Of a DNA stretch of 64,000 nucleotides, positions 4,237 to 54,525 are shown one piece after another. A model generated the notes under the pieces. The model worked only from the letters and a program-made list of their open reading frames with translations. It did not search any database and was not told the DNA's origin. The position numbers and the translations under genes are program-made. This DNA is from Diphasiastrum complanatum (taxonomy: Eukaryota; Streptophyta; Lycopodiopsida; Lycopodiales; Lycopodiaceae), in contig CM055111.1 in NCBI GenBank assembly GCA_029204225.1, positions 47,779,594 to 47,843,593 of the forward strand. Reading direction: 5' to 3'. How positions within the stretch are numbered: position 1 is the first letter of the stretch; each line of letters starts with the position of its first letter.

Positions 4237-4543
4237 ATGTGAATATTTTGTCAATCATTAAGATCCAACATCACCTATTGATCTTTGGTTAGAAAAACAA
4301 CATTATTTACACCATTTGCAATATAGAAAATCAACATCTACTTGATGAAAGAGATGCAAACTCAACAAGATCTTGATCAAACATCAAACTTATGATAAAA
4401 TGAAGTTGTTGTCCATACAAAAATAGTAAGCTCCTATATTTCACACGTGTGGATCCGAATATCAACTAAACAATACATTCTACACACAAGATTGCAAGAT
4501 ATCACCAAGATAGTGCACCAATGGATAGATGAATCCAAGAGAA
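4237..4543 (-). repeat. Copia II 5' LTR, internal part (split by insertion)
   Basis: R/U5-side part of the minus-strand copia II LTR, homologous to 14280-14581. It is interrupted at 4543 by the copia I insertion and resumes at 10328 after the duplicated GAGAA. Confidence 0.8.
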
Positions 4544-5281
4544 TGTGAAGAATTGAAAAAAGATTATCTATGTTAGATATAGGGGTCTTATGTTTTTTAC
4601 ATCAAGCATCTAGATGTAGGATGCTGATAGGAATAAATTTGGCATAGATGGCAAATTATGCATTTCCACTTGTAATGCCACTATTGAGCCAAAATAGAGT
4701 AAGAGGCTAAACACTTGCTAATTAGAGTGTAGACAAGTGTAAAGTTTTTGTTTGATGAATTCCAAGAGGTCCAATAGGATTTAGAGGTGGAACCTTGTGA
4801 GGTCCAATAGGAAATTGAGGTGTGCTTGAATATAGTCCAATAGAATCAAGAGGTGCATAGATCAATGATCCAATAGGATCAAGAGGTGACAAAATATGGT
4901 CCAATCATAGTTAAGCATAGTGGTAGCTCGTGGACCTACTAGTATCATTGTACTCCTCATTTTGAAATCAATTGATTTGGTGATTTCATGAATTTTGTGA
5001 GTTATTGGATTTCTAGCTTTCTCTCTCTACCCGAGAGCTCATGATGCATTTTCTCTCTCTACCTGAGGAGAGCAACTTGTTTTTACTTAGATTATTTTTT
5101 GAATACTTCCCACACGTGTGAGTGAGAGTTGGAAGTGATTGAATGCATGTAGTAGCGTGTTTTTGCCAGAGGATTCAAGATTGATCTTGAATCTCAATCT
5201 AGTCTTGATTTTGGTGCATCTACACACCTTAGGAGATCACAAGTACATGTAGTGGACAGTCCACACGTGTGAAATTCAACA
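4544..5281 (+). repeat. Copia I-a 5' LTR
   Basis: 738 bp from TGTGAAGAATTG to AAATTCAACA. It contains the palindromic CACACGTGTG near 5110 and ACACGTGTGAAA at the 3' end, and a CCAAT array at 4771-4905. Confidence 0.95.
4771..4905 (+). promoter_or_regulatory. Array of five evenly spaced CCAAT boxes in the LTR
   Basis: CCAAT starts at 4771, 4804, 4837, 4870 and 4901: spacings of 33, 33, 33 and 31 bp. The array lies in the U3 half of the LTR and recurs in the 3' LTR and in the copia I-b LTRs. Because 33 is divisible by three, the reverse strand reads as an 11-residue repeat (PLDPIGSLIYA, PLDSIGLYSST and so on), which I take as a by-product. A role as NF-Y-type promoter elements is inferred. 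Confidence 0.6.
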
Positions 5282-5294
5282 TGGTATCAGAGCC
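5282..5294 (+). promoter_or_regulatory. Primer-binding site, copia I-a
   Basis: TGGTATCAGAGCC, the initiator-Met tRNA primer site, directly abuts the 5' LTR. Confidence 0.95.
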
Positions 5295-5984
5295 TACCTA
5301 AGGTTACCATGCATTTTGATCCATCTAAGTGAAAAAATTTCCATCAATCTTGAGCTATAAGTTGTCAAGGCCCATTTTCCTAGCTATCTTGTTCAATCTT
5401 GGATCAAAAGAGATCAAAAGGACATTGATTGGGTCTGACCTGGTACTGTACGGAATCAGGTGCTCAGACACGTGTGAGGAACATCCAATTTCAGTTTGAA
5501 AATTCTCTCTCATGTTTGATCCATTTATCTTGCTTGATAGCTTGTTTTGAAGCTATTTTTGTCTAGTTTCTGTTGCAATCAGTTTTATTCCATTTGGTTG
5601 AGCCAATCAAAAGTTATAAGCTTTTGAAGAAGGTTAGGTAGGGCACCTAGACCTGGGTGGACACATTTGGTTTGTTCAAGAGATTGCTTGGTTGATCCAA
5701 AATCACAGTTGTATGCTTGCCAATCTCATCTATATGTGATCTAGGCACTGTTTTGAGATCTTAGCCATTTTGTTTCATGCAATATCATTGTATTTGAGTC
5801 AAATTTGGTTTCTTAGTGTATTTCACACGTGCTAAGAGTGTTAGATCCTAACTTTGCCTATACTCCATCATTTGATGTGAAACAGATCTTGTTTTAGAGA
5901 GATTTGAGTAGCTAGTGAGAATCAATTCACAAATTGTTGTAAGATCTTTCATAGGAGGAGATAGTACTCAATTATTGGATCCTA

Positions 5985-8900
5985 TTGAAAGTGTGTAACA
6001 ACATTTATTGTTCATCATTTGAGTTTTCTTCACTTCAAATGTCTTCAATGGGTTCATCCTTGTTGGAACCAAGTGAAAGATTGACCACTTCAAATTATTC
6101 AATTTGGAAAATGAGGCTGGAGTCCATCTTGATTCTTCAAGACGTGATGGACATAGTTCTTGGCCTTGAAGAAGAACCACAAGTTCTTCAAGAGGTTCAA
6201 AAATACAAAAAGAGAGCTAGGATGGCTCTCCACTACATTAAGATGAATGTCTCTAATGAGATATTGAGGGAGATAGGTACTTGTACAACAGCCAAAGAAG
6301 CTTGGGATTGTCTCAAGACTATCTATGAGGCTAAGAATACCTCTAGGCTTCTCACTCTTAGGAATCAAATCTTTCAAAGTAGCCAAAAGAGTGATGAGAG
6401 TGCATCTAGTTATGTTTTGAGAGTAAAAGATATTCATAGAAAGCTTGTTTGCATTGGTGATTCCATCAATCAAAATGAGCTAGTTCAAGTCATTCTCAAT
6501 GGCTTGATAAGTGAATTTGATAACCTTGTCCAATCCTATGCCATTAAGGAGGAGCTACCAAGTTTGGAGACTCTCCAAAGTGTGCTAATTTCAGAAGAAT
6601 CAAGACAAGAGTACAAGCACTTGAGGATGGACAAGCTTTCTCTCACTCATAATGATGGCAAAGCTCTCTTTGCCAAGGATAAGCACAAAGAGAGGAGCAA
6701 GAACCAACATCAACAATCCTCAAGCAAGGACAAAGTCAAATCCAAAGACAAAGATGAGGAGGAAGATGATTCCTCTAATGCTTCATCATCCAAGCTCAAG
6801 AAGAAGAAGAAGATCAAGTGCTTTTATTGTGGCAAGAAAGGTCATTATGCCACCAATTGCTTCAAAAAGAAGAATCAACTCAAGCAAGCCAATATTACCA
6901 ATGAGAAGGAAGATACTATTGCAAGTGATGGAGAGGGATCTCTTATGGTCTCTAGTTTCTCATCTACTCCTTTCAAGAAGGACGGCCTATGGTATATTGA
7001 TAGTGGATCCTCTTCACATATGTGTAGCTTCAAGGACTCTTTCTCTTCTATTGCACCTTATGATGGAGTGAGGAAATCAATATACACTACAAATGATTTT
7101 GAATGTCCTATTGAAGGCATAGGGAACATTCCCTTGAAGCTTGCATCCTCTAAAGTTCTTTCTCTCTCTAGAGTTCTTTATGTACCTAAGCTTACCAAGA
7201 ATCTTATTAGTGCTGGCCAATTGCTTGATAATGGCCTTGATGTAGAATTCAATGTTGATACTTGCACTATCAAGAAGAATGATGAGATACTTGCATTAGG
7301 ATCTAGATTTGGTGGCATCTATAAACTAGATCCAAATGAGTATGTGAATGCTTGTAATGTTGCTCTTGTGAACAAGCTCTCTATGGAGGAATTATGGCAT
7401 AGGAGGTTGGGACATCCCAACTACAAATCCATGCTCTCTATGATCAAAGAGACCAAAGCTATTGGTTTGCCAAAGTCATTCTCCAAGAAGATCAAGCCTT
7501 GTGAGGCTTGTGCTGTTGCTAAATCTCACAAAAAGCCATTTACAAGATCTTCTATCAAAAGCAAGCATCCTTTGGAGTTAATCCACTCGGATGTGCATTT
7601 CTCATCAACTACAAGCAAGGGAGGAGCCACTTGTTTTGTTACTTTCATTGATGATTACACAAGATTCACTTGGATATATCTTCTTGCTTCAAAATCTATG
7701 GTGTTTTATCATTTCCTTATTTTCAAAGCTTATGTAGAGAAGCAATTCTCATTCAAGATTAAAGATCTTAGAAGTGATAAAGGTGGTGAATATATCTCCA
7801 ATAAATTTCAAGATTTTTGTGAGCTTGAAGGCATTAAAAGAGAGTTTTCTTGTGCCTACTCTCCATCTCAAAATGGAGTGGCCGAGAGAAAGAATAGATC
7901 TCTATGTGAATGTGCAAAATCTATGATAATTGAGGCATCTTTGCCCAAAGATTTTTGGGGAGAAGCCATCAATTGTGCAAATTATCTTTGCAATAGGCTC
8001 CCACATATAGCTCTTGGAGGAAAGTCACCATATGAAATCTTTTTTTTTAAGAAGCCTAAGGTTGATCACCTTAGAGTTTTTGGATGCTTATGCTTTGTCC
8101 ATATTCCCTTGGAAACAAGGAAGAAGGAAGATCCTAGTGCATGCAAAGGGATCATGGTTGGATACTCATCCACCAAGAAGGCCTATAGATTCTTTATACT
8201 CTCTACTTCTCAAGTTGTTGAAAGTAGAGATGTTGTCTTTCATGAAGATCAACACTCATCATTTGAAGAGGCCGAGATCAAGAAATCTATGAATGCATCA
8301 TCAATTATTGATTTTGAAGACAATCATGATGTGATGGGGTCGAGATTTGAAGAAGACTCTCCTCGGATTTTTTCACCAAGAAGATCCATGAGAGATAGAT
8401 CCGAGCCTAAGAGGCTCTCATATGTTGACAAAGGCAAACAAGTGGATCTTGATTCCACTAATTATGTTTTTTATGTCTCTCATGAAGAGCCAAAGAATGT
8501 ACAAGAGGCACTCAATACCAAGGAGTGGTATGATGCCATGAAGCAAGAGTATGATGCATTGATCACCAACAATACTTGGGAGCTTGTGGATCCTCCATCC
8601 AACAAGCATGTGATTGGTTGCAAGTGGGTATTTCGGATCAAGTTCAATCATGATGGCACCATCAACAAGCATAAAGCAAGATTATGTGCCAAAGGATTTG
8701 CTCAAATCCATGGTCTTGATTATGAGGAGACCTTTGCATCCGTTGCAAAGATGGTGACAATAAGAATTCTTATATCTCTTGCTTGTTTTTTCAATTGGAA
8801 GGTGTTCCATTCTAAGAGCATAGATACTCCAATGGAGCAAATTGTAAAAGATCCTAATAAAGGTGATGAAAGATCCTTTGAGGACATCACACTTTTTAGG

Positions 8901-9572
8901 AGTCTTGTAGGCTCCTTGATTTGGCTTACCATTACTAGGCCCGATCTTAGTTTTTGTGTGCACAAATTGAGTCAAGTTATGCAAGATCCTAAGATCCATC
9001 ATTGGAAGATGGCCAAGAGGATTCTAAGATATGTATCTTCATCTTGTGATTATGGTCTACTCTATAAAAGTGAAGATCTATCCATTATTGGCTACTCGGA
9101 TTCGGACTTTGCAAGTGACAAGATGGATCGAAAGTCTATTAGTGCATACACTATCTTTCTTGGAGGCAATCTAATATCTTGGCTTTCCAAAAAGCAAGAT
9201 ACTATATCTCTCTCTTCATGTGAGGCCGAGTACAAAGCACTCACTACAACTACCAAAGAAGTGCTTTGGATCAAGAGGATATTAATGGAACTAAAGTGCA
9301 TCAAGGAGGATGATCTACCAATGATCAAGTGTGATAACATCTCGGCCCAAGCTCTTGCCAATAATCCCATATTTCATGCAAGAAGCAAGCACATAGAAGT
9401 GGCACACCATTTTGTGAGAGAAAAGCTTATTGGAGAAGAAATCTATTTGGAGCATGTCAACTCGTCCTCTTGTATTGCCGATCTACTCACCAAGCCTTTG
9501 AGCAAAAGTGCTTTCATCAAGCATAGATCTAATCTTGGAGTTATATCAAGATCAATGTTCAAATCTTCATAG
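5985..9572 (+). CDS. Copia Gag-Pol polyprotein lacking RT core
   Basis: Single open frame of 1195 codons. The likely real start is the Met at 6039 (MSSMGSSLLEPSERLTTSNY), matching Gag of related copies. Domains in order: Gag; CCHC knuckle CFYCGKKGHYATNC near residue 279; aspartic protease DSGSSSHM near 338; integrase HHCC (HRRLGHP...CEACAVAKSH) near 470-510 and catalytic D, D, E in HSDVH, SDKGGEY and GVAERKN near 535, 597 and 632; N-terminal RT motif KARLCAKGF; RNase H GYSDSDFASD near 1036 and LSSCEAEY. At about residue 942 roughly 153 residues, including the YVDD active site, are missing compared with the copia I-b copy, and the deletion is in frame. The protein could supply Gag, protease, integrase and RNase H but not polymerase. 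Confidence 0.93.
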   Translation: MKVCNNIYCSSFEFSSLQMSSMGSSLLEPSERLTTSNYSIWKMRLESILILQDVMDIVLGLEEEPQVLQEVQKYKKRARMALHYIKMNVSNEILREIGTCTTAKEAWDCLKTIYEAKNTSRLLTLRNQIFQSSQKSDESASSYVLRVKDIHRKLVCIGDSINQNELVQVILNGLISEFDNLVQSYAIKEELPSLETLQSVLISEESRQEYKHLRMDKLSLTHNDGKALFAKDKHKERSKNQHQQSSSKDKVKSKDKDEEEDDSSNASSSKLKKKKKIKCFYCGKKGHYATNCFKKKNQLKQANITNEKEDTIASDGEGSLMVSSFSSTPFKKDGLWYIDSGSSSHMCSFKDSFSSIAPYDGVRKSIYTTNDFECPIEGIGNIPLKLASSKVLSLSRVLYVPKLTKNLISAGQLLDNGLDVEFNVDTCTIKKNDEILALGSRFGGIYKLDPNEYVNACNVALVNKLSMEELWHRRLGHPNYKSMLSMIKETKAIGLPKSFSKKIKPCEACAVAKSHKKPFTRSSIKSKHPLELIHSDVHFSSTTSKGGATCFVTFIDDYTRFTWIYLLASKSMVFYHFLIFKAYVEKQFSFKIKDLRSDKGGEYISNKFQDFCELEGIKREFSCAYSPSQNGVAERKNRSLCECAKSMIIEASLPKDFWGEAINCANYLCNRLPHIALGGKSPYEIFFFKKPKVDHLRVFGCLCFVHIPLETRKKEDPSACKGIMVGYSSTKKAYRFFILSTSQVVESRDVVFHEDQHSSFEEAEIKKSMNASSIIDFEDNHDVMGSRFEEDSPRIFSPRRSMRDRSEPKRLSYVDKGKQVDLDSTNYVFYVSHEEPKNVQEALNTKEWYDAMKQEYDALITNNTWELVDPPSNKHVIGCKWVFRIKFNHDGTINKHKARLCAKGFAQIHGLDYEETFASVAKMVTIRILISLACFFNWKVFHSKSIDTPMEQIVKDPNKGDERSFEDITLFRSLVGSLIWLTITRPDLSFCVHKLSQVMQDPKIHHWKMAKRILRYVSSSCDYGLLYKSEDLSIIGYSDSDFASDKMDRKSISAYTIFLGGNLISWLSKKQDTISLSSCEAEYKALTTTTKEVLWIKRILMELKCIKEDDLPMIKCDNISAQALANNPIFHARSKHIEVAHHFVREKLIGEEIYLEHVNSSSCIADLLTKPLSKSAFIKHRSNLGVISRSMFKSS

Positions 9573-9582
9573 ATAATTTTTT

Positions 9583-9590
9583 AGGAGGAG
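9583..9590 (+). promoter_or_regulatory. Polypurine tract, copia I-a
   Basis: AGGAGGAG immediately precedes the 3' LTR and is conserved in copia I-b; expected plus-strand primer. Confidence 0.9.
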
Positions 9591-10327
9591 TGTGAAGAAT
9601 TGAAAAAGATTATCTATATTAGATATAGGGGTCTTATGTTTTTTACATCAAGCATCTAGATGTAGGATGTTGATAGGAATAAATTTGGCATAGATGGCAA
9701 ATCATGCATTTCCACTTGTAATGCCACTATTGAGCCAAAATAGAGTAAGAGGCTAAACACTTGCTAATTAGAGTGTAGACAAGTGTAAAATTTTTGTTTG
9801 ATGAATTCCAAGAGGTCCAATAGGATTTAGAGGTGGAACCTTGTGAGGTCCAATAGGAAATTGAGGTGTGCTTGAATATAGTCCAATAGAATTAAGAGGT
9901 GCATAGATCAATGATCCAATAGGATCAAGAGGTGACAAAATATGGTCCAATCATAGTTAAGCATAGTGGTAGCTCGTGGACCTACTAGTATCATTGTACT
10001 CCTCATTTTGAAGTCAATTGATTTGGTGATTTCATGGATTTTGTGAGTTATTGGATTTCTAGCTTTCTCTCTCTACCCGAGAGCTCATGATGCATTTTCT
10101 CTCTCTACTCGAGGAGAGCAGCTTGTTTTTACTAAGATTATTTTTTGAGTACTTCCCACACGTGTGAGTGAGAGTTGGAAGTGATTGAATGCATGTAGTA
10201 GTGTGTTTTTGCCATAGGATTCAAAATTGATCTTGAATCTCAATCTAGTCTTGATCTTGGTGCATCTACAAACCTTAGGAGATCACAAGTACATGTAGTG
10301 GACAGTCCACATGTGTGAAATTCAACA
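9591..10327 (+). repeat. Copia I-a 3' LTR
   Basis: 737 bp, closely matching 4544-5281, and followed by the GAGAA target duplication. Confidence 0.95.
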
Positions 10328-16001: not shown

Positions 16002-16036
16002 CATTAGAGGAGTTCTTAATATCAAAAAGACCCTTT
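16002..16036 (+). repeat. Left terminal inverted repeat
   Basis: 35 bp beginning CATTAGAGGAGTTCT and ending AAAAAGACCCTTT. It matches the reverse complement of 23251-23285 at 34 of 35 positions (one T/C difference). Confidence 0.8.
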
Positions 16037-16526
16037 AAGAAATGCCATGTAGGATATACAAAAATATCAAAATAAATAAAACAATATTGTTTGTTTGCTT
16101 GCCCACACCACTCCCAAGGCCTCCCCAACTCTCAATGATCTAACCACAGTGTCTATAGTCACAGTTAAGAACTGTTAATAGTTCGCAGTATAACTTGACT
16201 AAATTCAAAAATATTCCCTCCATTGGTTACGAAAAGGACAATATTTTCACTGGATCTAGAATATGACCGCCATCCCCAAATTTGAATCAGAAAAAATTGC
16301 AAAATGTTTACATATGCATTCCTTCCACAAGAATGGAAATATGAGCGCCAACTACCTATTGGAATGAAAAAATGAGCGGCATTTCCAAATTTGAATCAAG
16401 CATACAAGCATGGAGATTGGATTGATCGTACATAGTATATAATATAATCAAAGATGAGTATTTTGTTTTGCTTCATAGAATCTGGTCATAGTACTTTGAT
16501 GCAAGTGATTACTCTATTTTTTTTTT
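16037..16526. other. Left subterminal non-coding region
   Basis: AT-rich sequence with two similar blocks containing 'tttccaaatttgaatca' / 'ccccaaatttgaatca' near 16270 and 16383 and 'atgagcg' motifs. It probably contains the promoter of the 16527 gene. No binding site can be named. Confidence 0.5.
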
Positions 16527-17518
16527 ATGATGACATTATATCATCTACATGTGGATATCCCTGTTGATTTGGCACCTTTGCAGAGAAGAGGAGGCAAAGG
16601 AGTTCAAATATCTACTGAAGATCGTTCTCGTTACAGGGCAGAAGGAAAGAAAAACGTGGATTTGTGGACAGATGGAACATTATATCCACAAGATCCAAGC
16701 ACTTTGACACATCCCACATTCTCTTCAATAACTCATTTAGTTACATGGATATGCAATGGGCATAGTGGATTACTAGGATATTGTGAAAGATTGCAAAACC
16801 ATGGAAAACAACTTTATATGAATAAAGTTCACTTTTTAGAAGGTGAGTTAATTCAGATATCCTCTTATTGTCAGAATAGAGATTGTCATCTCCAAAAGAC
16901 GTTAGAAGAAAATGAACAACTTAAAAAAAATCATGAATCATTATAGAAGATAGCAATCAATATCAAATCAAAAATAGAGCAAATGCAATCAGTCTTACAG
17001 TCTATTCGTATTGAAAACTTGCAATTACTGAAGGATGTGGATTTAGTAAAGAAGAAGGCTGAAAGTAAGAAGCGAAAGCGACAAAGTTGCAAGGATATTC
17101 AAACGCTTTCAAAAGGAGGTTATCGAAATAGAAGGATCTGTGCATTCAAGTAAGCATATTCTAAATTTTGTAAGTTTTTCAATGACATTTGGATTTTAAT
17201 TTCAGCTATGGTGATATTCTGCTAACTATCTATTTTTTTTTGCAGATCTGCATTAGTAGCTCCTCGGAATATTAAAGACAATGCTTCACTAGGAATGTCA
17301 TTGGGCACAATATTGACTTCAAATCCATTGAGCGTATCATGATGAACAATAGGATTTCAAATGTAAAGTTTAAAATAGCAGAGTCTTTGATGGTGGACAT
17401 TCAAAATATTTTAGATAAGACTATAGTTCAGGGTGCTTGTGATTTTGTAGGTATTAGTAGGGAAGCATATGCAACAATATTTAAACTAAAGAAATTATCT
17501 GCTAGCGTATGCATCTAA
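16527..17518 (+). pseudogene. Coiled-coil nuclear-type protein of the TIR element
   Basis: Exon 1 runs 16527-17149 and exon 2 from 17246, with GT at 17150 and a T-rich acceptor ending TTTGCAG at 17245. Exon 1 has one in-frame TAG at 16944 and otherwise reads through. The product has an N-terminal block (YHLHV, EGKKNVDLW, DGTLYPQDP, SGLLGYC) shared with 2475-2990, a charged coiled-coil middle, and KKKAESKKRKR as a likely nuclear localisation signal. In exon 2 the frame shifts by one near 17290 and continues through KSIERIMMNNRISNVKFKI to GISREAYATIFKLKK. Its stop at 17516-17518 overlaps the end of the minus-strand neighbour by 24 bp, tail to tail. No known family is recognised. Confidence 0.6.
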
Positions 17519-18737
17519 TAGATGTGCATTATCCTTATTTCCACTAAGCTCAATATAAGTGGAATACAATGAATAATGGGATCTCCTTAAAGGAACATTC
17601 CCATCAGTAAAGCCTAAAATGTTCAAAACATAAGATCTTTTGACAAAAATGATCTTATTTGTCTTAACAAATTTATGTCCTCCTAAATAAAATGATAAAG
17701 CTTTAACTGCCATTATAAGACTCTCCCCGACTGGGCTCAGCTTGGAATGAGCAATACAGATCTCACTCTTCAAGAAATGCCGAAGATAGTGGCCCAGTCC
17801 ACTGTCCCTCTGGAACAAGGATGCGTGTTGTCTGAAACCACCTCGTCTCACAGAAAAATCATCTATTATGAGAGCATTTTGCAATAGGAAATATGTTAGC
17901 GAAAATACATTCAGTGATTGAAAACATTCAAATGCAAGGAAGATTAAACACTTACACATTCTTCATCATCAGCAGCAACCAGATCAGGATGATCAATATA
18001 ATGACCATGTATTGAAGTGGAATCATCAGTGAAATGCATTAATGATGGACGAAGGAAGCCCATCTGGGATTGAAATGCCGTGAATTCTTCATCGGATGGT
18101 CTGCCTCACCCATCCTCAGCTATATTTGATAAAGGCTTATTCAGGCATTCTTCACCGGTCATAAGACCCTCCTCATCATCAAAATCAATACCAACAACAA
18201 TGTCATCTGTCTCAAAATCTACAAAGTCGGAGAATTCGGAAATTGTGCCGGATAATAAACATAGAACCTCGTCCTCACGATAGTCAAATAATTTACATAA
18301 ATCAGCAGTAGTAAAATATACATTGTCATTAATATAATATACAAGCAAATTGAAAAGACATTTCGAATCCTCCATAGATTTGGATTCATCATCAGATGTA
18401 TTTTGGCCAGTGAAAGAATCCCGGAGAACATCAGTATTTAAATCAATGAAGTCACTTTCTTTATCAGGAGTGTCGATAAGAAAGTGACTGATATCCCTAA
18501 TGGCTGATGAACAGAGGAGGGTGCAAAAGGAGAGTCAGCAACAAGAAACTCATCATCATCTGGGATCTGAACTAAAAGAAAAAGTACGAAACCACTCTGA
18601 TATTCAACCAATTGACATTTCTTGTTGCAATACGAACACATAGAACTACTTTTGAAAAGATCAAACAATTTGGTGAACATTCTATCCAGTCTATGTCTAA
18701 AAGCTGGGAAGAAATGAACAAGATCAGTATAATGCAT
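17495..18737 (-). pseudogene. Acidic multi-exon protein of unknown function
   Basis: Minus-strand gene in at least two exons. 18737 to 17956 holds an N-terminal piece with FRHRLDRMFTKLF and CSYCNKKC (possible metal site), then a strongly acidic piece (DFVDFETDDIVVGIDFDDEE). It ends at a GT donor followed by AAG. The last exon, 17862-17495, reads FSVRRGGFRQHASLFQRDSG through HSKLSPVGESLIMAVKALSF to DAYASR and stop. Lesions: one frameshift near 18490 and TGA in the EDG-stop-GRPSDEEF context. Splice phases do not join cleanly, so the model is tentative. It diverges from the H3-Ulp1 gene across a shared upstream region of about 0.8 kb. Confidence 0.5.
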
Positions 18738-19003
18738 GTACTGGAGTTGACCTATGGAGGAAATAGGCTTCTAAGTATATCCCTGAATCTGACATAATGT
18801 TTATAAAATACGTCAGAATTTGGTTATACAGTCCTGAAAACATGTAGATATGAAATGAGCATGCACAAAAGCGATATGTCGCGAATTTCGAGAACGCAAA
18901 AGGTAAAAAAATATTCGGTTTTCGTGCCATTTATATTAAATTTTCGCACATGGTCAACGGACTTATGACACATGTCTACTTTCAATTCGACAACAGGCGC
19001 AGG

Positions 19004-19204
19004 CACGTGTGAGATGACACCTGCACATGTGTGAAATGACACCTAGACACGTGTCGCGTGTTCATTCGAGTGCTTATAAACACGTGTCGCTCTCACATTC
19101 GATCGTACAAATCCCACACGTGTAGTGTGACAGAGTGACACGTGTCGCTCTCGCATTTGTCCGTACAACTCCCACACGTGTGACAGGACGTTCTTTCGCA
19201 CGTG
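19004..19204. promoter_or_regulatory. Cluster of seven CACGTG boxes, partly a 58-bp tandem duplication
   Basis: CACGTG occurs at 19004, 19048, 19081, 19117, 19139, 19175 and 19199. Four of these come from a tandem duplication with 58-bp period (19081-19138 and 19139-19196). CACGTG is the plant G-box/ABRE core bound by bZIP and bHLH factors. The cluster lies between the divergent genes starting near 18737 and 19533, so a shared promoter is likely. Confidence 0.7.
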
Positions 19205-19532: not shown

Positions 19533-21247
19533 ATGGATAGGAGAAAGCAGACAAGGAGAGACTTCTTCTCTCCTGGCTGATCCTCATCTCCTACGGTTGC
19601 CATCACACCCCCTGCTAGACCTAGAACGCGCAACCGCAGCAGGTGGCTCTCTGAGATACGCAAGTATCAGAGGTCAACAGCTCTGTTGATCCCAAGAGCT
19701 CCATTCTACTGTGCTATCCGAAACATAACAAGAAATGATCTCGGATAGCACGTTAGATTCACACCGAGTGCTCTTCAGTGCCTTCAGGAGGCTGCTAAAG
19801 ATTATATTAGCCTTTTTTTTTAGGATTCTTTTTTGCTTGCCATCCATACCAAGAGGGTTACCATAATGCCCAAGGATTTTCAGCTTCTGATGAGAATGAG
19901 GGATAGGTACTATAGGTTACATGTATCTCAGCCTGCTGCTCCTAGACCAACTCCTGTAGATAGGACTCATCTTCCTACAAAGCGTCCTAGGAAGCAGACA
20001 GCCCCCAAGCATGCTCCTAAGAAAGTGAAGCCTATCCCAGAATCCATTGTAGATAATGCTGTAAATATAGCTACCTCTGTTTTGGATACTCCTAATATTG
20101 CTGTAGATACTACACTTCCACCTCCTCCTCCTCCTCCCAATTTCTATACATATATAGATTCGCATGATTATCTTAAATTTGAGAAAGACATATCGGATGC
20201 TATAGATACAATTGGTACTCCTTTTTGTTTTAGACTAGAAGAACTTGATTTTAGTATTGATTTTAGAGTTCTAGATTGTCTGGATCTCAAAGACAGATGG
20301 GCTTCTATCATTGATCCTGTGATAGATTCCGGACTGACACTCTTGCAATTTGACATTGCAAGAGATTCATCAAACGAGTTGCTGGTGCTGAGTAACTTTC
20401 GGCTCCAGGCCTTCAAGGAGAATAATGACACATTGTCACAGTGTCTGACAAGTGGATTCACACCAGCAACAAAGTATCTGGTCATTCCTTATCATACCAA
20501 ATAAGATATATTAAGTGCTTCTTCTTGTTTTATGCATTAACATTGACATTTTCAATTTAAATAGTTCTCAGAATTGCCGCTAAAGTACTTTCAATCTTAT
20601 TTTGCAGTGACCACTGGAGTTTAAACCTGATCTCTATTAAGAGATCTGTAAATAATATTACTAAATGTTCTTGTGTCAAGATGAATTCGGCGAGAAATAC
20701 GCATAAGGATGTAGATATATTCATTCCATATCTAAGTAAATATATTCCTACAGACGTTCCCCATTCCGTGGACTGGCAGATCGTCAGCTTGGAGGTAAAC
20801 TCTTCTTTCTTAATAGCATTTTGAAATCAGTATTCTAATGAAATATTTTCAATCTAATTCATTCTGTTTCATAATTGATTTCTTGTGTGCTGAATTATTT
20901 TGCAGTCACCCTAGCAAAATGATTCATTCAACTGTGGGTGGTACACATTGTACAATGCCAAGCTGTTTTTTGAGTGGTTCATCCTTCAACAAGATGTTGA
21001 TATTTCTAAGGTAATAAATTCTGTTTATTCTTATTTTGGAATCATGATTAGTTTTCTATTCTGGTGATGTTATTGGCCATTACTAATGCATAAATGTTCT
21101 ATTTTGCAGTTTACACTTCCAGAGTACACATCAAGCCAGGTGTACAGATTTAGACAAGAAATTATCCTGAGTATACTGGCTCGGGCAAGGCTTCAGCCTC
21201 CCGTTATTGATGATGGTGCAAAAGATGATGTAGTTGTACTAAATTAA
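19533..21247 (+). pseudogene. Histone H3 fused to Ulp1-type C48 cysteine protease
   Basis: Four exons: 19533-20500, 20608-20794, 20906-21010 and 21110-21247; exact phase agreement gives 466 codons. The N-terminus MDRRKQTRR resembles the H3 tail. Codons 39-123 align with the H3 fold: EIRKYQRSTALLI, RFTPSAL, LQEAAKDY and AIHTKRVTIMPKD. A basic then proline-rich linker (TLPPPPPPP) and an acidic region follow. The C-terminal domain has LVIPYHT, HWSLNLISI with the expected catalytic His, and Q389..NCG with Cys395 (Q-x5-C-G, the C48 signature). A catalytic Asp is not evident. Lesions: TGA at 19578, TAG at 19746, 19821 and 20912, and intron 1 starting AT (20501) where GT is expected. There is no frameshift, suggesting recent inactivation. 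The histone part may target chromatin while the protease cleaves SUMO-like modifiers; that is inference. Confidence 0.8.
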
Positions 21248-21793: not shown

Positions 21794-22817
21794 TTAATCC
21801 AGTGGTAGCCATGTACCTTCAATTTTCTTGTATCTCTGGTAGCTAAATGTGAGACTGAGCATTTGCTTTTCGATATAATATTGAAAGATCATTGAGTACT
21901 TTTTAATCCTGAATTCTATGCCATTATTTGTTTTACTATCCCAGCCTTGATCCATGAGATCTGACAAAGTCTCATCTGATAAATCCTTGCAAACAAATAA
22001 AGTTGGTGTCCTACAAACACTAGCACTCGAGAAAAAATCAACAAATGTATGCAATGAGATAAACCAACTTAGGTGAACAATTTTTGAGCTTGTGCTTATC
22101 TTCATAGCATTTTTAATATCAATGAGTAGCTTGCATCTCAAGGATTCAGAAACAATGTTGTCAGGAGTAGGCCACTCATCACTTTGAAAACTAGGCAATG
22201 GAATTGCTTCGAGCTTGCCAAAACCTCCATCTGTTTGTGGCGTATATAAAGATTCATAAAAATAGATACCACAATCTGCAAGTTCCTTTGGACTTCTTCC
22301 TCTGTATTGTAGCTTTCCAACATCAGAGTGAATCATGTCTAATATTCCTGCAAGTGATTGTGCGGGCTCCCATTCACTTATGCATAATGGATATAAATCC
22401 GAAAAAAAAAAAAACAATGTTGAAGCATTTAAATCATAATCTGAAGAGCATCAATAAAGGAAATCACCTATGATTGCTGTAGAGTGCATATGTTTTGATA
22501 TACTTACAATTACATTTTTTATGATCATGAGGATTGATATCATGTACTTTGATTTCTGAATGCATATATACATGTTGCACTAAGACTTCGGATATCGATT
22601 AACCTCCCAGGGTAGTCTTAAATCCCAAAATTTTTGCTTTCCAATAAGATTTGTAAGTCATTTTTGCTCTTTTCTTTTGTCGAAAATTGCCTTTTGATGA
22701 TGGATGCAGCAATACCCATGAGTTCTTCGTATATTTTGTTGGCTTCTAGTTATCAGCTTCATCTTTCTCATTGTAAAGAATCACATAATCGATTGTAGAT
22801 CTGGGTCTCCTCACCAT
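21794..22817 (-). pseudogene. Unrecognised two-exon protein of the TIR element
   Basis: Exon 1 (22817-22604) starts MVRRPRSTIDYVILYNEKDE, has TAG within DN-stop-KPTKYTKNSW, and ends at a GTTAAT donor. The main exon (about 22370-21794) is an uninterrupted frame of roughly 200 residues: SEWEPAQSLAGILDMIHSDV, then GRSPKELADCGIYFYESLYT, SDEWPTPDNIVSESL, and ending KKIEGTWLPLD before the stop. It contains no cysteine-rich, helicase or DDE-like motif that I can name. The intron acceptor is not certain. It lies tail to tail with the H3-Ulp1 gene, and the long intact frame suggests it was under selection until recently. Confidence 0.55.
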
Positions 22818-23250: not shown

Positions 23251-23285
23251 AAAGGGTCTTTTTGATATTGAGAACTCCTCTAATG
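23251..23285 (-). repeat. Right terminal inverted repeat
   Basis: Reverse complement of 16002-16036 with one mismatch. The flanking bases outside the two repeats (AGG to the left, ACC to the right) do not form a direct duplication. Confidence 0.8.
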
Positions 23286-25114: not shown

Positions 25115-25325
25115 CTGGAACTCAATGGCTTGAAATAAGGACGCTGCTTATTGGTACCAGTGTTGCATTTCAGTAATATCCAATTTGGACAATTGGATGT
25201 CGAGCTTATTGGCATCAGGATCATCAAAACTAGAGGCAGGGTTGGTAGACATGATGAAAAACTGGGAAAGAAGAATCTAGAAAAAATGGTGTCAGTTGAG
25301 ATTTCAGACAGGGTTAACAGGCGTT

Positions 25326-25500
25326 GGTTGAGATTTGATCGGAGGGTGTTGGCTGAGATGGGAGCGGAGGGCGTCGGTTCAGATGGGAGCGGAGGGCGTC
25401 GGCTGAGATGGGAGGGGAGGGCGTCAGCTGAGATGTAATAGAAAGGCGTCGGCTGAGATGTAATGGAAATGTGTCGGTTGAGATGTAATGGAAAGGCTGG
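25326..25500. repeat. 25-bp minisatellite A, seven units
   Basis: Units start at 25326, 25351, 25376, 25401, 25426, 25451 and 25476, an exact 25-bp period. The core is GGYTGAGATG with GGAGGGCGTC or ATGGAAAGGCGTC between cores. Confidence 0.85.
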
Positions 25501-26188
25501 CTGAAGGGAGTGATGGCGGGAAAGGAATGGACTGTGAGGAACTGAGGTTGGGAAGGAAGGTGTGTGAAAGTGGAGGCGTTGTGGATAGAAGGGTATGGAG
25601 GATGTGTGGAAAATGAAGTATGGTGTGAACAATGGAAAGTAGAAGTTCCGAAAAAGAAGATGTTGATATATGTTTGTGACTAAGCGAAAGGGATGAAGAT
25701 ATTGGGAGATGTAAAGAAAGTAGCTTTCGGTGAAAACGGGTGTTTGGACAGGATGAAAGAAAAGTGTGTAAGATTAAAAGGTGATACTCAATAGTGTAAC
25801 GGAAGTGTGTTGAAGGCTTGCATGACACTACCCCTCAGCGTGCGAAATGTTTCAAATGCTTTGTTCTCCACTGGCAATATAAGGTTTGGAGATGGTTTGT
25901 GATGGCACTCTCAATGGGAAACACACTAGGATGGCTGATATTGGGTGGAGATGGTGTGGAAGCAATGACTGATGCACCGGACGAGAGAGCGCCAAGATCG
26001 TGTAGGAGAGCCAGAAACTCACCAACAGATTGTCATCAGAGAGCTCCAGAGTTCGCACTTTGCTGAAGTGTGAATGGCGTTGAAGTGATGGCATTTATGG
26101 TCGTCGTCGGCTAGGTTCGGGCGCGATGGGACGTGTCTGTTCGTTGGATTTTGAATGAGAAGTGTCAAGATTTGATGAAAATCCATCA

Positions 26189-26388
26189 GTTGAGATTCGG
26201 GCGGATCCCGTCGGTTGAGATTTGAGCGAATCTCGTCGGTTGAGATTTGAACAGATCCCGTCGGTTGAGATTTGAACGGATCCCATCGGTTGAGATTTGA
26301 GCAGATCCCATCCGTTGAGATTTGAACGAATCCCGTCGGTTGAGATTTGAACGGATCCAGTCGGTTGAGATTTGACAAAATTCCAATA
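26189..26388. repeat. 25-bp minisatellite B, eight units
   Basis: Units start every 25 bp from 26189 to 26364. Consensus is GTTGAGATTTGA then RCGGATCCCGTCG. It shares the GGTTGAGAT core and the exact period with array A 0.7 kb away. As 25 is not a multiple of three, the reverse strand cycles through three frames. Confidence 0.9.
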
Positions 26389-26793
26389 TGAAGGAATTGA
26401 TCTATTTTCTGCAAGTGAAGAACTTCAAGGGAAAACATGACTGTGGCTCAGAGTAGAAGCTCTTACGAAGAAGGTGTATCTCCAGGAATGTTTGTATGCC
26501 TGAGATACCAGTCAGACGAAGATGAGGTGGCTAAAGTGTGAGAATCACTTCCTATGGTGTAGCCTATCATTTGTTGATCTAGAACATCCATGACCCATGA
26601 GTATGTACAGAAAAAAGAAAATGCATAGATAGTACATAAGAAATGGTATGAAGTATAAACAAGGAATGAGGTGAACAACAGGCATGCAAAACGAGAATTA
26701 CAAACAAGGAAATAAAATAAAAAGTAATAGAATGAATAAAAAATAACACAAAAAATAAAAATAAAATGTAGAATATATACGAGAGAAAAGATG

Positions 26794-33600: not shown

Positions 33601-34372
33601 TGAAACTTCTGCCGTAGGCTAAAAGCAGAAAATAATGACCTGCACTTTTTCCCTTACCAGGCCACCCACCGCTTTTCCAACAAATTGAAAGCCAAATCGG
33701 TGTCGCCTTCCGAAATGCACTTTGTCGTCAACTCCCAACTACGTGCCCAATGGAATGGCAAAATCACTTTTGGCGCACTCTGAACACTTTCTGCACTGCA
33801 ATCACTCTGTTTTGTTCTACCGTACTTGTAGGTATAGTCCGGGTACCCTTCGTTTGGAGTCTTTAGTCTTTCGTTTGGTTCAAAACAAATAAAGGAGGCA
33901 AAATTAACAACTTTTTCACTTTTTGAACTAATTCTTCAATTTGAAGAGAGTTCAACTTTCAGTGAATTTGGACCCAACTCAACTTTCAATATGAAGATTT
34001 TTATTGAAGTTGAAGCTTATTTTTCCTTTCAACACTCTTCAGGCCCTCTTCAAACCAATCCAATGGTTTTTGCAAGTTAGATGGCCCAGATTTCTCCTTG
34101 AGGACATTATCTTGGCCCTTGATTTATTGGCCTTTCATCCTACGGTGATGCACGATCTGGCACGCTAATGGTAGTCCCTCCAACCGCTGGCCCACCTAAG
34201 CATACTACTTGTCTCTTCCGGTTGACTACGCACAACCTGTCTGCACCTTCTCCACGAGCTTCCTATGGCCGCCCTCTGAAAGGCTGATTCAGCTCCTTGC
34301 TGCTCCTCGTGCTCTCTATGGCTAGTCACGGCCTTATGTCTACTAGGTCACCCTCCTATTGCGCCCAGCTAT
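33601..34372 (-). other. Copia III leader, proximal part
   Basis: Non-coding sequence between copia III gag and the gypsy insertion. It ends with the GCTAT target site at 34368-34372. Confidence 0.6.
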
Positions 34373-35188
34373 TGTAGGGTCTTCTATCCGACATTGTAAT
34401 AGCCCTCCGGCCTTTCAACAAGGGTTAGTTCACTAGATAGGCACCTAACTATGCATAGATGTTACTTTTAGTTAGTTCTCTACTGTTTGTCTAACTCTAC
34501 CTCCCCTAACACTACTCACACTAACTCTACTCCCCTAACTAACTTCGTCATGATTGTTGGTGAAAAGAAAGGGTAGAATAGAAGAGGAAGAAGAAGGAGA
34601 AGAGAGAAAGATAGAGAGATGAGATGGAGGTTAGCTCAAATGCTCAAATTCATTACTTATGGAAAAACCTTAACTAGCATAAACAAAAAGCATGGGAAAT
34701 GGAAATAACAAGCAAACCACAACAATAGCATAAGCAAGAGTGATTAGCAAATGAGAATGCTTGAGCTCCCAAAATGATAGAGTCTCCTCTTCTCTATTAA
34801 GCATGGAAAAAGAGTACAAATGATGCCATTTTATAAAATGGGGAAGGCCCTTGCTGCAAATCCTATTGGCTAATATTTATATTGATCCTATTTATTCATC
34901 TTGGACCCAACTTGATCCAAGGGTCCACAAAAAGTACATTGAAATTCACAAGATTCATGTGAGTCCCAATTTGGACCCAACTCTAAAAAAGTAATCTCTA
35001 AGTTTAAAATTGACCTTGGGCCTCAAGGTTTATTTTACTTACAAAGGTCCCAAGCCTATTATTTTAATCACACCTTAGCTTGCGTGCTCATTGGGCCATG
35101 GGCTTATACTCGTAGGATGCCATGCCCTCACAACACATTTTATTGGTCAATTTTATTTATTTACAATTCGTTGGGAATACCCCCAACA
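34373..35188 (-). repeat. Gy1 3' LTR
   Basis: 816 bp, TGTTGGGGG...CCTACA on the minus strand, homologous to 1231-2046 and 53704-54520. Confidence 0.93.
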
Positions 35189-36762
<1,574 letters not shown>

Positions 36763-46937: not shown

Positions 46938-47674
46938 TGTTGAATTTTACACGTGTGGATTGTCCACTACATGTACTTGTGATCTCCTAAGGTGTGTAGA
47001 TGCACCAAGATCAAGACTAGATTGAGATTCAAGATATATCATTGATTCTATGGCAGAAACGCACTACTACATGCATTCAATCACTTCCAACTCTCACTCA
47101 CACGTGTGGGAAGTATTCAAAAAATAATCTAAGTATAAACAAGCTGTTCTCCTTGGGTAGAGAGAGAAAAAGCATCATGAGCTCTAGGGTAGAGAGAGAA
47201 AGCTAGAAATCCAATAACTCACAAAATTCATGAAATCACCAAATCAAGTATATCCAAAATGAGGAGTACAATGATACTAGTAGATCCACGAGCTACCACT
47301 ATGCTTAACTATGATCGGACCATACTTTGTCACCTCTTGATCCTATTGGACCAATGATCCATTCACCTCTTAATTCTATTGGACTATATTCAAGCACACC
47401 TCAATTTCCTATTGGACCTCACAAGGTTCCACCTCTAAATCCTATTGGACTTCTTGGAATTCATCAAACAAAAGCTTTACACTTGTCTACACTCTAATTG
47501 GCACGTGTTTAGCCTCTTACTCTATTTTGGCTCAATAGTGGCATTACAAGTGAAAATGCATAATTTGCCATCTATGCCAAATTTGTTCCTATCAACATCC
47601 TACACCTAGATGCTTGATGTAAAAAACATAAGACCCCTATATCTAACATAGATAATCTTTTTCAATTCTTCACA
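46938..47674 (-). repeat. Copia I-b 3' LTR
   Basis: 737 bp. The polypurine tract AGGAGGAG (minus strand, 47675-47682) adjoins it. Confidence 0.94.
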
Positions 47675-47692
47675 CTCCTCCTAAAAAATTAT

Positions 47693-49662
47693 CTATGAAA
47701 ATTTGAGCATCGATCTTGATATAACTCCAAGATTAGATCTATGCTTGATGAAAGCACTTCTGCTCAAAGGCTTGGTGAGTAGATCGGCAATACAAGAGGA
47801 CGAGCTGACATGCTCCAAATAGATTTCTCCTCCAATAAGCTTTTCTCTCACAAAATGGTGTGCCACTTCTATGTGCTTGCTTCTTGCATGAAATATGGGA
47901 TTATTGGCAAGAGCTTGCGCCGAGATGTTATCACACTTGATCCAATGATCATCCTCCTTGATGCACTTTCGCTCCATTAATAACCTCTTGATCCAAAGCA
48001 CTTCTTTGGTAGTTGTAGTGAGTGCTTTGTACTCGGCCTCACATGAAGAGAGAGATATAGTATCTTGCTTTTGGAAAGCCAAGATATTAGATTGCCTCCA
48101 AGAAAGATAGTGTATGCACTAATAGACTTTCGATCCATCTTGTCACTTGCAAAGTCCGAATCCGAGTAGCCAATAATGGATAGATCTTCACTTTTATAGA
48201 GTAGACCGTAATCACAAGATGAAGATACATATCTTAGAATCCTCTTGGCCATCTTCCAATGATGGATCTTAGGATCTTGCATAAATTGACTCAATTTGTG
48301 CACACAAAAACTAAGATTGGGCCTAGTAATGGTAAGCCAAATCAAGGAGCCTACAAGACTCCTAAAAAGTGTGATGTACTCAAAGGATCTTTCATCACCT
48401 TTATTAGGATCTTTTACAATTTGCTCCATTGGAGTATCTATGCTCTTAGAATTTTCCATATGGAATTCTTTCAACATAGAGTGAGCATATCTAGATTGGC
48501 ATATAAAGACATGATTTTCATAAAAATTAATTTCTAGGCCTAGGATGTAATGCATCTCTCCTAGATCTTGCATTTTAAACTCACATCCAAGTGCTAGCTT
48601 GGTTTCATCAACTAGCTTGATACAACTTCCACAAAGAATAATGTCATCAACATAAATTAGAAGAATGACAATATTGCTATCAACAAACTTTAGATACATG
48701 GAAGGATCATAGTCACTAAGAGTAAATCCTAGTGAGATAAGAAAAGAATTAAGTCTTGAATACCATGATCTTGGTGCTTGCTTGAGTCCATAAAGACTTT
48801 TAAAGAGAAAACACACTTTGGACTCATCCTTGATGAATCCTTGAGGTTGTTCCATATAAATCTCCTCCTCAAGATAACCATTTAGAAAAGCATTGGATAC
48901 ATCTAATTGGAACGCCTTCCACTTGAAAAAACAAGCAAGAGAAATAAGAATTCTTATTGTCACCATCTTTGCAATGGGTGCAAAGGTCTCCTCATAATCA
49001 AGACCATGGATTTGAGCAAATCCTTTGGCACATAATCTTGCTTTTCTATAGGCCTTCTTGGTGGATGAGTATCCAACCATGATCCCTTTGCATGCACTAT
49101 GATCTTCTTTCTTCCTTGTTTCCAAGGGAATATGGACAAAGCATAAGCATCCAAAAACTCTAAGGTGATCAACCTTAGGCTTCTTCAAAAATAAGATTTC
49201 ATATGGTGACTTTCCTCCAAGAGCTATATGTGGGAGCCTATTGCAAAGATAATTTGCAAATTTAATGGCTTCTCCCCAAAAATATTTGGGCAAAGATGCC
49301 TCAATTCTCATAGATTTTGCACATTCACATAGAGATCTATTCTTTCTCTCGGCCACTCCATTTTGAGATGGAGAGTGGGCACAAGAAAACTCTCTTTTAA
49401 TGCCTTCAACCTCACAAAAATCTTGAAATTTATTGGAGATATATTCATCACCTCCATCACTTCTAAGAGCTTTAATCTTAAATGAGAATTGCTTCTCTAC
49501 ATAAGCTTTGAAAATAATGAAATGATCAAACACCATAGATTTAGAAGCAAGAAGATATATCCAAGTGAATCTTGTGTAATCATCAATGAAAGTAACAAAA
49601 CAAGTGGCTCCTCCCTTGCTTGTAGTTGATGAGAAATGCACATCCGAGTGGATTAACTCCAA
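47693..49662 (-). pseudogene. Copia I-b integrase, RT and RNase H
   Basis: 49662-47977 is a 561-codon frame: integrase core (LIHSDVHFSS, LRSDGGDEYISN, QNGVAERKNRS) running directly from GYSSTKKAYR into KARLCAKGFAQ. The usual integrase-RT linker and RT N-terminus, about 161 residues in copia I-a, are missing in frame. RT then continues complete: QLDVSNAFLNGYLEEEIYME, SLYGLKQAPRSWY and LIYVDDIILCGS. RNase H has GYSDSDFASDKMDRKSISAY. A frameshift near 48080 passes the end to 48082-47693, which has LSSCEAEYKAL and ADLLTKPLSRSAFIKHRS. Confidence 0.92.
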
Positions 49663-49701
49663 AGGATGCTTGCTTTTGATAGAAGATCTTGTAAATGGCT
49701 T

Positions 49702-50228
49702 TTAGTGAGATTTAGCAATAGCACAAGCCTCACAAGGCTTGATCTTTTTGGAGAGTGACTTTGGCAAGCCAATAGCTTTGGCTTCTTTGATCATAGAGAG
49801 CATGGATTTGTAGTTGGGATGTCCCAACCTCCTATGCCATAATTCCTCCATGGAGAGCTTGTTCACAAGAGCAACATTACAAGCATTCACATACTCATTT
49901 GGATCTAGTTTATAGATGCCACCAAATCTAGATCCTAATGCAAGTATCTCATCATTCTTCTTGATAGTGCAAGTATCAACATTGAATTTTACATCAAGGC
50001 CATTATCAAGCAATTGGCCAACACTAATAAGATTCTTGGTAAGCTTAGGTACATAAAAAAAACTTTAGAGAGAGAAAGAACTTTAGAGGATGCAAGCTTC
50101 AAGGGAATGCTCCCTATGCCTTCAATAGGACATTCAAAATTATTTGCAGTGTATATTGATTTCTTGACTCCATCATAAGGTGCAATAGAAGAGAAAGAGT
50201 CCTTGGAGCTACACAATAAATATACCAT
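49702..50228 (-). pseudogene. Copia I-b protease and pre-integrase, broken
   Basis: Two overlapping frames: SSIAPYDGVKKSIYTANNFE (50228-49989) and VNACNVALVNKLSMEELWHR..CEACAIAKSH (50013-49702). A small deletion near 50220 removes the D-S-G protease active site present in copia I-a. A TAA follows AKSH where copia I-a has AAA, just before the integrase frame. Confidence 0.85.
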
Positions 50229-51229
50229 AGGCCGTCCTTCTTGGAAGGAGTAGATGAGAAACTAGAGACCATAAGAGATCCCTCTCCATCACTTGCAATA
50301 GTATCTTCCTTCTCATTAGTAATGTTGGCTTGCTTGAGTTGATTCTTCTTCATGAAGCAATTGGTGGCATAATGACCTTTCTTGCCACAATAAAAGCACT
50401 TGATCTTCTTCTTCTTGAGCTTGGATGATGAAGCATTAGAGGAATCATCTTCCTCCTCATCTTTGTCTTTGGATTTGACTTTGTCCTTGCTTGAGGATTG
50501 TTGATGTTGGTTCTTGCTCCTCCCTTTGTGCTTATCCTTGGCAAAGAGAGCTTTGCCATCATTATGAGTGAGAGAAAGCTTGTCCATCCTCAAGAGCTTG
50601 TACTCTTGTCTTGATTCTTCCAAAATTAGCACGCTTTGGAGAGCCTCCAAACTTGGTAGATCCTCCTTAATGGCATAGGATTGGACAAGGTTATCAAATT
50701 CACTTCTCAAGCCATTGAGAATGACTTGAACTAGCTCATTCTGATTGATGGAATCACCAATACAAGCAAGTTCTCTATGAATATCTTTTACTCTCAAAAC
50801 ATAACTAGATGCACTCTCATCACTCTTTTGGCTACTTTGAAAGATTTGATTCCTAAGAGTGAGAAGCCTAGAGGTATTCTTAGCCTCATAGATAGTCTTG
50901 AGACAATCCCAAGCTTCTTTGGCTGTTGTACAAGTACCTATCTCTCTCAATATCTCATTAGAGACATTCATCTTAATGTAGTGGAGAGCCATACTAGCTC
51001 TCTTTTTGTATTTTTGAACCTCTTGAAGAACTTGTGGTTCTTCTTCAAGGCCAAGAACTATGTCCATCACATCTTGAAGGATCAAGATGGACTCCATCCT
51101 CATTTTCCAAATTGAATAGTTTGAAGTGGACAATCTTTCACTTGATTCCAACAAGGATGAACCAATTGAAGACATTTGAAGTGAAGAAAACTCAAATGAT
51201 GAACAATAAATGTTGCTACACACTCTCAA
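50114..51229 (-). CDS. Copia I-b Gag
   Basis: 371-codon frame nearly identical to copia I-a Gag: MSSIGSSLLESSERLSTSNY (likely true start), YSIWKMRMESIL, RNQIFQSSQKSDESASSYVL and CCHC knuckle CFYCGKKGHYATNC. It ends abnormally after LWYI because of the small deletion at the protease. Gag itself appears intact. Confidence 0.9.
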   Translation of the reverse strand: MRVCSNIYCSSFEFSSLQMSSIGSSLLESSERLSTSNYSIWKMRMESILILQDVMDIVLGLEEEPQVLQEVQKYKKRASMALHYIKMNVSNEILREIGTCTTAKEAWDCLKTIYEAKNTSRLLTLRNQIFQSSQKSDESASSYVLRVKDIHRELACIGDSINQNELVQVILNGLRSEFDNLVQSYAIKEDLPSLEALQSVLILEESRQEYKLLRMDKLSLTHNDGKALFAKDKHKGRSKNQHQQSSSKDKVKSKDKDEEEDDSSNASSSKLKKKKIKCFYCGKKGHYATNCFMKKNQLKQANITNEKEDTIASDGEGSLMVSSFSSTPSKKDGLWYIYCVAPRTLSLLLHLMMESRNQYTLQIILNVLLKA

Positions 51230-51920
51230 TAGGATCCAATAAGAGAGTACTATCTCCTCCTATGAAAGATCTTGCAACTATTTGTGAATTGATTCTCACT
51301 AGCTACACAAATCTCTCTAAAACAAGATCTATTTCACATCAAATGATGGAGTATAGGAAAAGTTAGGATCAAACCCTCTTAGCACGTGTGAAGTACTCTA
51401 AGAAACTAAATTTGACTCAAGTACAATGATATTGCATGAAACAAAATGGCTAAGATCTCAAAACAGTGCCTAGATCACATATAGATGAGATTGGCAAACA
51501 TACAACTGTGATTTTGGATCAACCAAGCAATCTCTTGACCAAACCAAATGTGTCCACCCAGGTCTAGGTGCCCTACCTAACCCTCTTCAAAAGCTTATAA
51601 CTTCTGATTGGCTCAACCAAATGGAATGAAACTGATTGCATCAAAAACTAGACAAAAAATAGCTTCAAAACAAGCTATCAAGCAAGATAAATGGATCAAG
51701 CATGAGAGAGAACTTCCAAACTGAAATTGGATGTTCCTCACACGTGTCTGAGCACCTGATTCTGTATAGTACCATGTCAAACCCAATCAATGTCCTTTTG
51801 ATCTCTTTTGATCCAAGATTGAACAAGATAGCTAAGAAAATGGGCCTTGACAACTTCTAGCTCAAGATTGATGAAAATTTTTTCACTTAGATGGATCAAA
51901 ATGCATGGTAACCTTAGGTA

Positions 51921-51933
51921 GGCTCTGATACCA
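51921..51933 (-). promoter_or_regulatory. Primer-binding site, copia I-b
   Basis: TGGTATCAGAGCC on the minus strand, abutting the 5' LTR. Confidence 0.95.
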
Positions 51934-52662
51934 TGTTGAATTTCACACGTGTGGATTGTCCACTACATGTACTTGTGATCTCCTAAGGTGTGTAGATGCA
52001 CCAAGATCAAGACTAGATTGAGATTCAAGATCTATCTATGGCAAAAACACACTACTACATGCATTCAATCACTTCCAACTCTCACGCACACGTGTGGGAA
52101 GTATTCAAAAAATAATCTAAGTAAAAACAAGCTGCTCTCCTCGGGTAGAGAGAGGAAAAACATCATGAGCTCTCGGGTAGAGAGAGAAAGCTAGAAATCC
52201 AATAACTCACAAAATCCATGAAATCACCAAATCAATTAGATCCAAAATGAGGAGTACAATGATACTAGTAGATCCACGAGCTACCACTATGCTTAACTAT
52301 GATTGGACCATACTTTGTCACCTCTTGATCCTATTGGACCATTGATCCATGCACCTCTTAATTCTATTGGAGTATATTCAAGCACACCTCAATTTCCTAT
52401 TGGACCTCACAAGGTTCCACCTCTAAATCCTATTGGACCTCTTGGAATTCATCAAACAAAAGCTTTACACTTGTCTACACTCTAATTGGCACGTGTTTAC
52501 CCTCTTACTCTATTTTGGCTCAATAGTGACATTACAAGTGGAAATGCATAATTTGCCATCTATGCCAAATTTATTCCTATCAACATCCTACACCTAGATG
52601 TTTGATGTAAAATACATAAGACCCCTATATCTAACATAGATAAGTTTTTTCAATTCTTCACA
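51934..52662 (-). repeat. Copia I-b 5' LTR
   Basis: 729 bp, with the same CCAAT array and CACACGTGTG palindromes as the other copia I LTRs. Confidence 0.94.
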
Positions 52663-53684: not shown

Positions 53685-53702
53685 TCCCCGGCAACGGCGC
53701 CA
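53685..53702 (-). promoter_or_regulatory. Gy1 primer-binding site (Asp tRNA)
   Basis: On the minus strand TGGCGCCGTTGCCGGGGA, one base after the 5' LTR. It is complementary to the 3' end of plant tRNA-Asp as I know it, a primer used by Athila-type gypsy elements. Confidence 0.88.
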
Positions 53703-53703
53703 C

Positions 53704-54520: not shown

Positions 54521-54525
54521 GCTAT

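Follow-up and report, generated by a model that had tools for sequence, protein, structure and literature searches.

Does a plant genome hold, or did it once hold, a gene in which a histone H3 is fused to a Ulp1-type cysteine protease, and to what kind of genetic element would such a gene have belonged? The question arises from a four-exon gene model on the forward strand of a 64-kb window, by which we mean the whole stretch of DNA that was analyzed. The initial annotation had read this model as an open gene, and had speculated that its product could combine nucleosome incorporation with deSUMOylation and so let a mobile element edit chromatin where it sits. The pairing of H3 and C48 (Ulp1-like) domains is real and unusual, and it resides in a dead copy.

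Two domains in one decayed reading frame

With both strands of the region read, the four exons (19533-20500, 20608-20794, 20906-21010 and 21110-21247) join in perfect phase, as first proposed, to give 466 codons including the final stop. Exon 1 encodes an H3-like tail, the H3 fold, a basic and proline-rich linker and the start of the C48 domain. The next two exons supply the parts of C48 that carry the catalytic His (DHWSLNLISI, exon 2) and the Gln and Cys (QNDSFNCG, exon 3), and exon 4 supplies the C-terminus with the final stop. Both domains are recognized in this one model by a Pfam scan of its read-through translation, in which stops were written as X. The histone domain (PF00125, E 1.3e-24) covers model residues 27-123 (19611-19901, forward strand), and Peptidase_C48 (PF02902, E 8.4e-09) covers residues 311-437 with 36 bits against a curated cut-off of 20.7.

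The description of the model as an open gene has to be given up. Four in-frame stops interrupt it, at residues 16, 72 and 97 (TGA 19578, TAG 19746 and TAG 19821, all in exon 1) and at residue 388 (TAG 20912, in exon 3), and intron 1 (20501-20607, 107 nt) starts with AT instead of GT. Introns 2 and 3 are bounded by GT...AG, the acceptor TTTTGCAG is identical at all three introns, and the introns have a GC content of 26% versus about 42% in the exons. A random sequence of 466 codons would be expected to have approximately 29 stops, far more than the four seen (P(<=4) about 6e-9), and the remaining five frames of the spliced exons contain 30, 43, 14, 18 and 44. Because stops are so few relative to random sequence, and yet four of them lie within the model and the donor of intron 1 is missing, the model is a decayed coding region, neither a chance product nor an intact gene.

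The joining of the two domains does not depend on splicing. A single frame of 226 codons without a stop (19824-20501, forward strand) connects the last third of the H3 fold, by way of the linker, with the C48 domain; at the base composition of the window, the probability of such an open frame in any one given stretch is about 4e-7. One could suppose that only a short C48 protein was made from this frame, starting at the ATG at 19866 after the last H3 stop, with the H3 remnant serving as leader sequence. The frame is indeed open across this Met, but the Met is simply that of the H3 motif TIMPKD, and the short form is broken as well, because exon 3 has its stop ahead of the catalytic Cys and intron 1 has no GT donor. 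We consider a short C48 protein to be improbable.

The motifs named in the initial annotation for the protease, a His in HWSLNLISI and a Q-x5-C-G signature, are present and align with Ulp1. Among solved structures yeast Ulp1 is the best match (E 0.0036), and the His (HW), Gln and Cys (CG) fall opposite their counterparts in 1euv_A and 6dg4_A, residues that we take to be catalytic. Opposite the third catalytic residue, neither of the two best alignments with Ulp1, both weak (E 0.0036 and 0.0058), places an Asp. With the frame broken and this Asp lacking from the alignments, the proposal that this very locus directs nucleosome incorporation and deSUMOylation is not supported. The linker between the H3 fold and C48 comprises about 185 residues, and a lysine-rich stretch within it, KRPRKQTAPKHAPKKVK, which follows the H3 fold, could act as a nuclear localization signal.

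The H3 part, its probable past constraint and the search for relatives

The best match of the H3 part in the PDB is H3.1 (8kcb_F), with 79.4 bits and E 2.4e-21 over residues 21-124, and its core is identical to canonical H3 at 45 of 88 positions (51%). An H3 N-terminus had been noted from KQT, and the tail start MDRRKQTRRD does align in register with MARTKQTARK; it retains R2, K4, Q5, T6 and R8 but has D in place of K9, and the alignment becomes gapped and uncertain past residue 9. Of the 40 positions that precede EIRKYQ, one is a stop and just one is a lysine, in the K4 register, and the tail of modifiable lysines that is typical of H3 is not kept. Further into the domain, H113, R116, D123, L126, R129 and R83 are retained, residues to which we ascribe roles in the H3-H3 bundle and in minor-groove contact. 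R49, R63 and R69, presumably DNA contacts of H3, are lost.

The H3 part belongs to the same histone family as canonical and centromeric H3, and differs by its one tail lysine, a loop 1 that is longer than that of H3 by one residue, and the C-terminal C48 extension. A CENH3 identity was considered on account of LLIP, DS and KDF, but the scores do not favor it: alignment gave 200 for H3, 183 for Arabidopsis CENH3 and 178 for human CENP-A, and among the best 60 of 171 structure matches cnp1 (9lrv_E) reached 76.9 bits versus 79.4 for the best H3. A viral origin was also set aside, as 37 IMG/VR stretches with pattern matches to the H3 part yielded no relatives by tblastn.

Whether the H3 part evolved under constraint can be judged from the sites at which it has changed. 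With nine other divergent H3 sequences as reference, 16 of 20 family-invariant sites are kept, compared with 29 of the 69 remaining sites (Fisher 0.0026). Of the 42 replacement residues, 23 occur in another H3 variant as well; the mean for this share in a neutral simulation is 16%, and none of 2000 runs reaches the observed value. When only six database variants serve as reference, 22 of 27 invariant sites are kept versus 24 of 62 others (P 0.00018), and 18 of 41 replaced residues are shared, a number that none of 5000 draws from a BLOSUM-weighted null attains. The variant sets exclude two database proteins, P0001 and P0004, that are canonical H3, and the site test points in the same direction when repeated without the CENH3 sequence.

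Measures of overall decay give a different picture. Neutral decay simulated to the same identity leaves a mean of 2.3 stops in the H3 core versus two seen, and both the BLOSUM score (P 0.22) and the share of conservative changes (P 0.56) resemble its outcome. The lack of insertions and deletions in the core is the sole departure from it, at an assumed indel rate, and the longest run of matches in the H3 part, nine residues, is not significant (P 0.06). A recent pseudogene of a host H3 was rejected because of the site pattern, even though this coarser test fits neutral decay. Since the replacements tend to occur at positions that differ among H3 variants, the H3 part most probably existed as a variant of H3 until it was broken, to judge from its sequence. 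This constraint shows past selection on H3 and is no evidence on the fusion.

These results bear directly on the possibility that the fusion is a local accident of this one copy: a gene or fragment of a divergent H3 variant would have landed in frame ahead of a transposon C48 gene, and a joined protein would never have been produced or come under selection. The fit of the overall decay measures to neutral drift agrees with such an accident, as does the fact that the H3 part holds three of the four internal stops. Also in line with an accident, no second copy of the segment was found within the 64-kb window, either by blastn of the segment or by tblastn of the model, which finds its own locus only. 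Against an accident stand the tracking of H3-family constraint by the H3 changes, insofar as it speaks for past selection on H3, and the state of the junction: the 226 codons that span it contain no stop, compared with about 5.9 expected at the divergence of the H3 core (P about 0.003 under the assumptions of the simulation).

The absence of relatives with both domains is also in keeping with a local accident. The initial annotation knew of no histone-Ulp1 fusion, and held that the pairing would be accidental if no other locus shared it. Three queries of about 5.8 billion protein sequences, searched by shared 5-residue words, returned no protein with both H3 and C48. A second locus with both domains is thus missing from the protein database, as far as shared 5-residue words can reveal one; distant relatives can be missed because the search depends on such words. 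The whole model found eight matches at E <= 0.1 among 2774 candidates, through its H3 part, and none of these has a precomputed PF02902. The linker plus C48 found no match at E <= 1 among 1198 candidates from the same proteins, and the H3 part, queried against proteins of 0.55-1.75 times the length of the model, found five at E <= 0.01 among 121, none with both domains. Among the matches listed from the open-licence PMC literature, no title or start of an abstract describes a histone encoded by a transposon or a fusion of H3 with Ulp1.

Taken with the evidence on either side, a local accident appears somewhat unlikely. The joined H3-C48 frame is well supported, and a reading frame comprising H3 and C48 is supported as the ancestral state. 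Selection on the fusion itself is less well supported, and the case for it is that the frame stays open across the junction, without a single stop.

The database matches also yielded some observations on H3 relatives. The best match, P0001 (143 bits), proved to be a canonical H3 in tandem, from Actinidia eriantha, and lacks C48. P0002, P0003 and P0005 are H3-like proteins with long N-terminal extensions, and the first two are apparently members of one family.

A putative transposon and its possible use of the fusion

The gene is enclosed by terminal inverted repeats of 35 bp, which a repeat search placed at 16002-16036 (left arm, forward strand, CATTAGAGGAGTTCTTAATATC...) and 23251-23285 (right arm, reverse strand). 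The arms lie 7.2-7.3 kb apart, begin with CATTA and are identical at 34 of 35 positions, and their similarity ends abruptly on both sides, an arrangement that is not expected by chance. The surrounding segment is most likely a transposon. The link to a mobile element that had been suggested from the outset therefore gains from the inverted repeats, while two other hallmarks did not materialize: there is no target-site duplication, the flanks of the inverted repeats sharing no direct repeat, and no transposase is recognized among the five other open frames (110-218 codons) inside the repeats, all compared with Pfam and four also with NCBIfam. The longest of these frames, 218 codons on the reverse strand (21797-22450), matches nothing in Pfam or NCBIfam at E <= 1. 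Three further frames on that strand (155, 142 and 110 codons, within 17498-18770) and one of 145 codons on the forward strand (16509-16943) show no Pfam match above the curated cut-off, and those of 142, 110 and 145 codons have none in NCBIfam.

The lack of a target-site duplication and of a transposase would also suit a former host H3-Ulp1 gene that decayed in place, with the inverted repeats contributed by unrelated insertions. Such an origin leaves the near-perfect, sharply bounded repeats to chance, and Ulp1 domains have been reported in several plant transposon families, according to the portions of two studies that we cite (PMC13317346, PMC2528002). A host gene is, on balance, an improbable source.

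In our preferred reading, a transposon once carried an H3-Ulp1 gene of which this locus is a decayed copy; the gene may have encoded an anti-silencing factor comparable to the VANC-Ulp1 proteins of VANDAL elements. Taken jointly with its premise that the host element is a plant DNA transposon bounded by terminal inverted repeats, we put this forward tentatively, as falling just short of an even chance. The nearest precedent for the proposed mechanism, in the excerpts of the literature cited here, is the VANC-Ulp1 genes (KIU) of VANDAL elements. KIU/Kaonashi is described there as VANC with a Ulp1 domain in non-TIR VANDAL MULEs, and VANDALs that carry KIU cause hypomethylation of related elements, although the precise function of the Ulp1 domain is stated to be unknown (PMC13317346). 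Hypomethylation by VANC is likewise described in the cited part of another report (PMC5735166). As in KIU, an Ulp1 (C48) domain is here paired with a chromatin-acting partner in a gene of a probable plant DNA transposon; unlike KIU as portrayed in that excerpt, the partner is a histone H3 and the element has short terminal inverted repeats. With these repeats present and no VANC domain found, the gene falls outside the KIU family as so defined, and DUF1985 has no Pfam match in the locus at E <= 1. The H3-C48 gene may nonetheless have worked as KIU does.

Other known systems share single features with the locus, as far as the quoted parts of their descriptions go. In CACTA-ULP transposons of grapevine and rice, which are also plant cut-and-paste transposons with an Ulp1 domain, Ulp1 occurs with Tnp2 (PMC2528002), whereas the repeats of our locus begin with CATTA rather than CACTA and the tested frames have no Tnp2 match. 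Ginger1 transposases resemble the model in the C-terminal position of Ulp1 in a DNA transposon protein, but combine it with a Gypsy-type integrase (PMC2836005), which is missing from the frames tested inside the repeats. In fungi, transposon-borne TET/JBP dioxygenases offer another case of a captured chromatin-related gene proposed to aid escape from silencing (PMC12730594), although these enzymes, as summarized there, act on DNA methylation and not on a histone.

A mechanism can be envisaged by analogy. Intact relatives of the H3-C48 gene would exist and make protein, and the H3 fold of this protein would enter nucleosomes together with H4. Its tail would keep the K4 register without K9 or K27, so that silencing marks could not be placed there, and the C-terminal C48 domain would strip SUMO or a SUMO-like modifier from nearby silencing factors. 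The net effect might be to free the element from silencing, in the manner of the VANC-Ulp1 proteins of VANDAL elements, a function that we infer. In its most far-reaching form, the proposal is of a plant transposon family that has its own fusion of an H3 variant to a SUMO protease and builds silencing-proof nucleosomes, unmarkable at K9 and K27 and with SUMO removed on site; this version we consider unlikely. An Ulp1 domain tied to histone H3 would point to the nucleosome as a site where transposon proteases could act, and it makes a question testable, namely whether a transposon-encoded H3 that lacks K9 shields its element from silencing.

Upstream repeats and other content of the window

The approximately 200 bp upstream of the gene (19004-19204) contain seven of the 25 CACGTG (G-box) cores in the window, several of them within ACACGTGTC. 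One-mismatch forms also appear in the LTRs belonging to the Copia elements of the window. Two such elements (4541-10327 and 46938-52662) are copies, in opposite orientation and about 95.6% identical, of one Copia-type LTR retrotransposon, and their LTR pairs are 97.3% and 95.4% identical, respectively.

The rest of the window has plant content, including a B-lectin/S-locus receptor kinase, Copia-type polyproteins and an integrase frame, presumably of Gypsy type. The B-lectin, S-locus and kinase frames at 56549-58749 belong to a receptor kinase gene that is likely a host plant gene. Copies of one repeat, with 89-95% identity where they align, are present at 301-2048, 34371-36133 and 53701-54521, and two arrays of a related 25-bp unit (for example AGATTTGAACAGATCCCGTCGGTTG) lie at 25306-25480 and 26143-26417.
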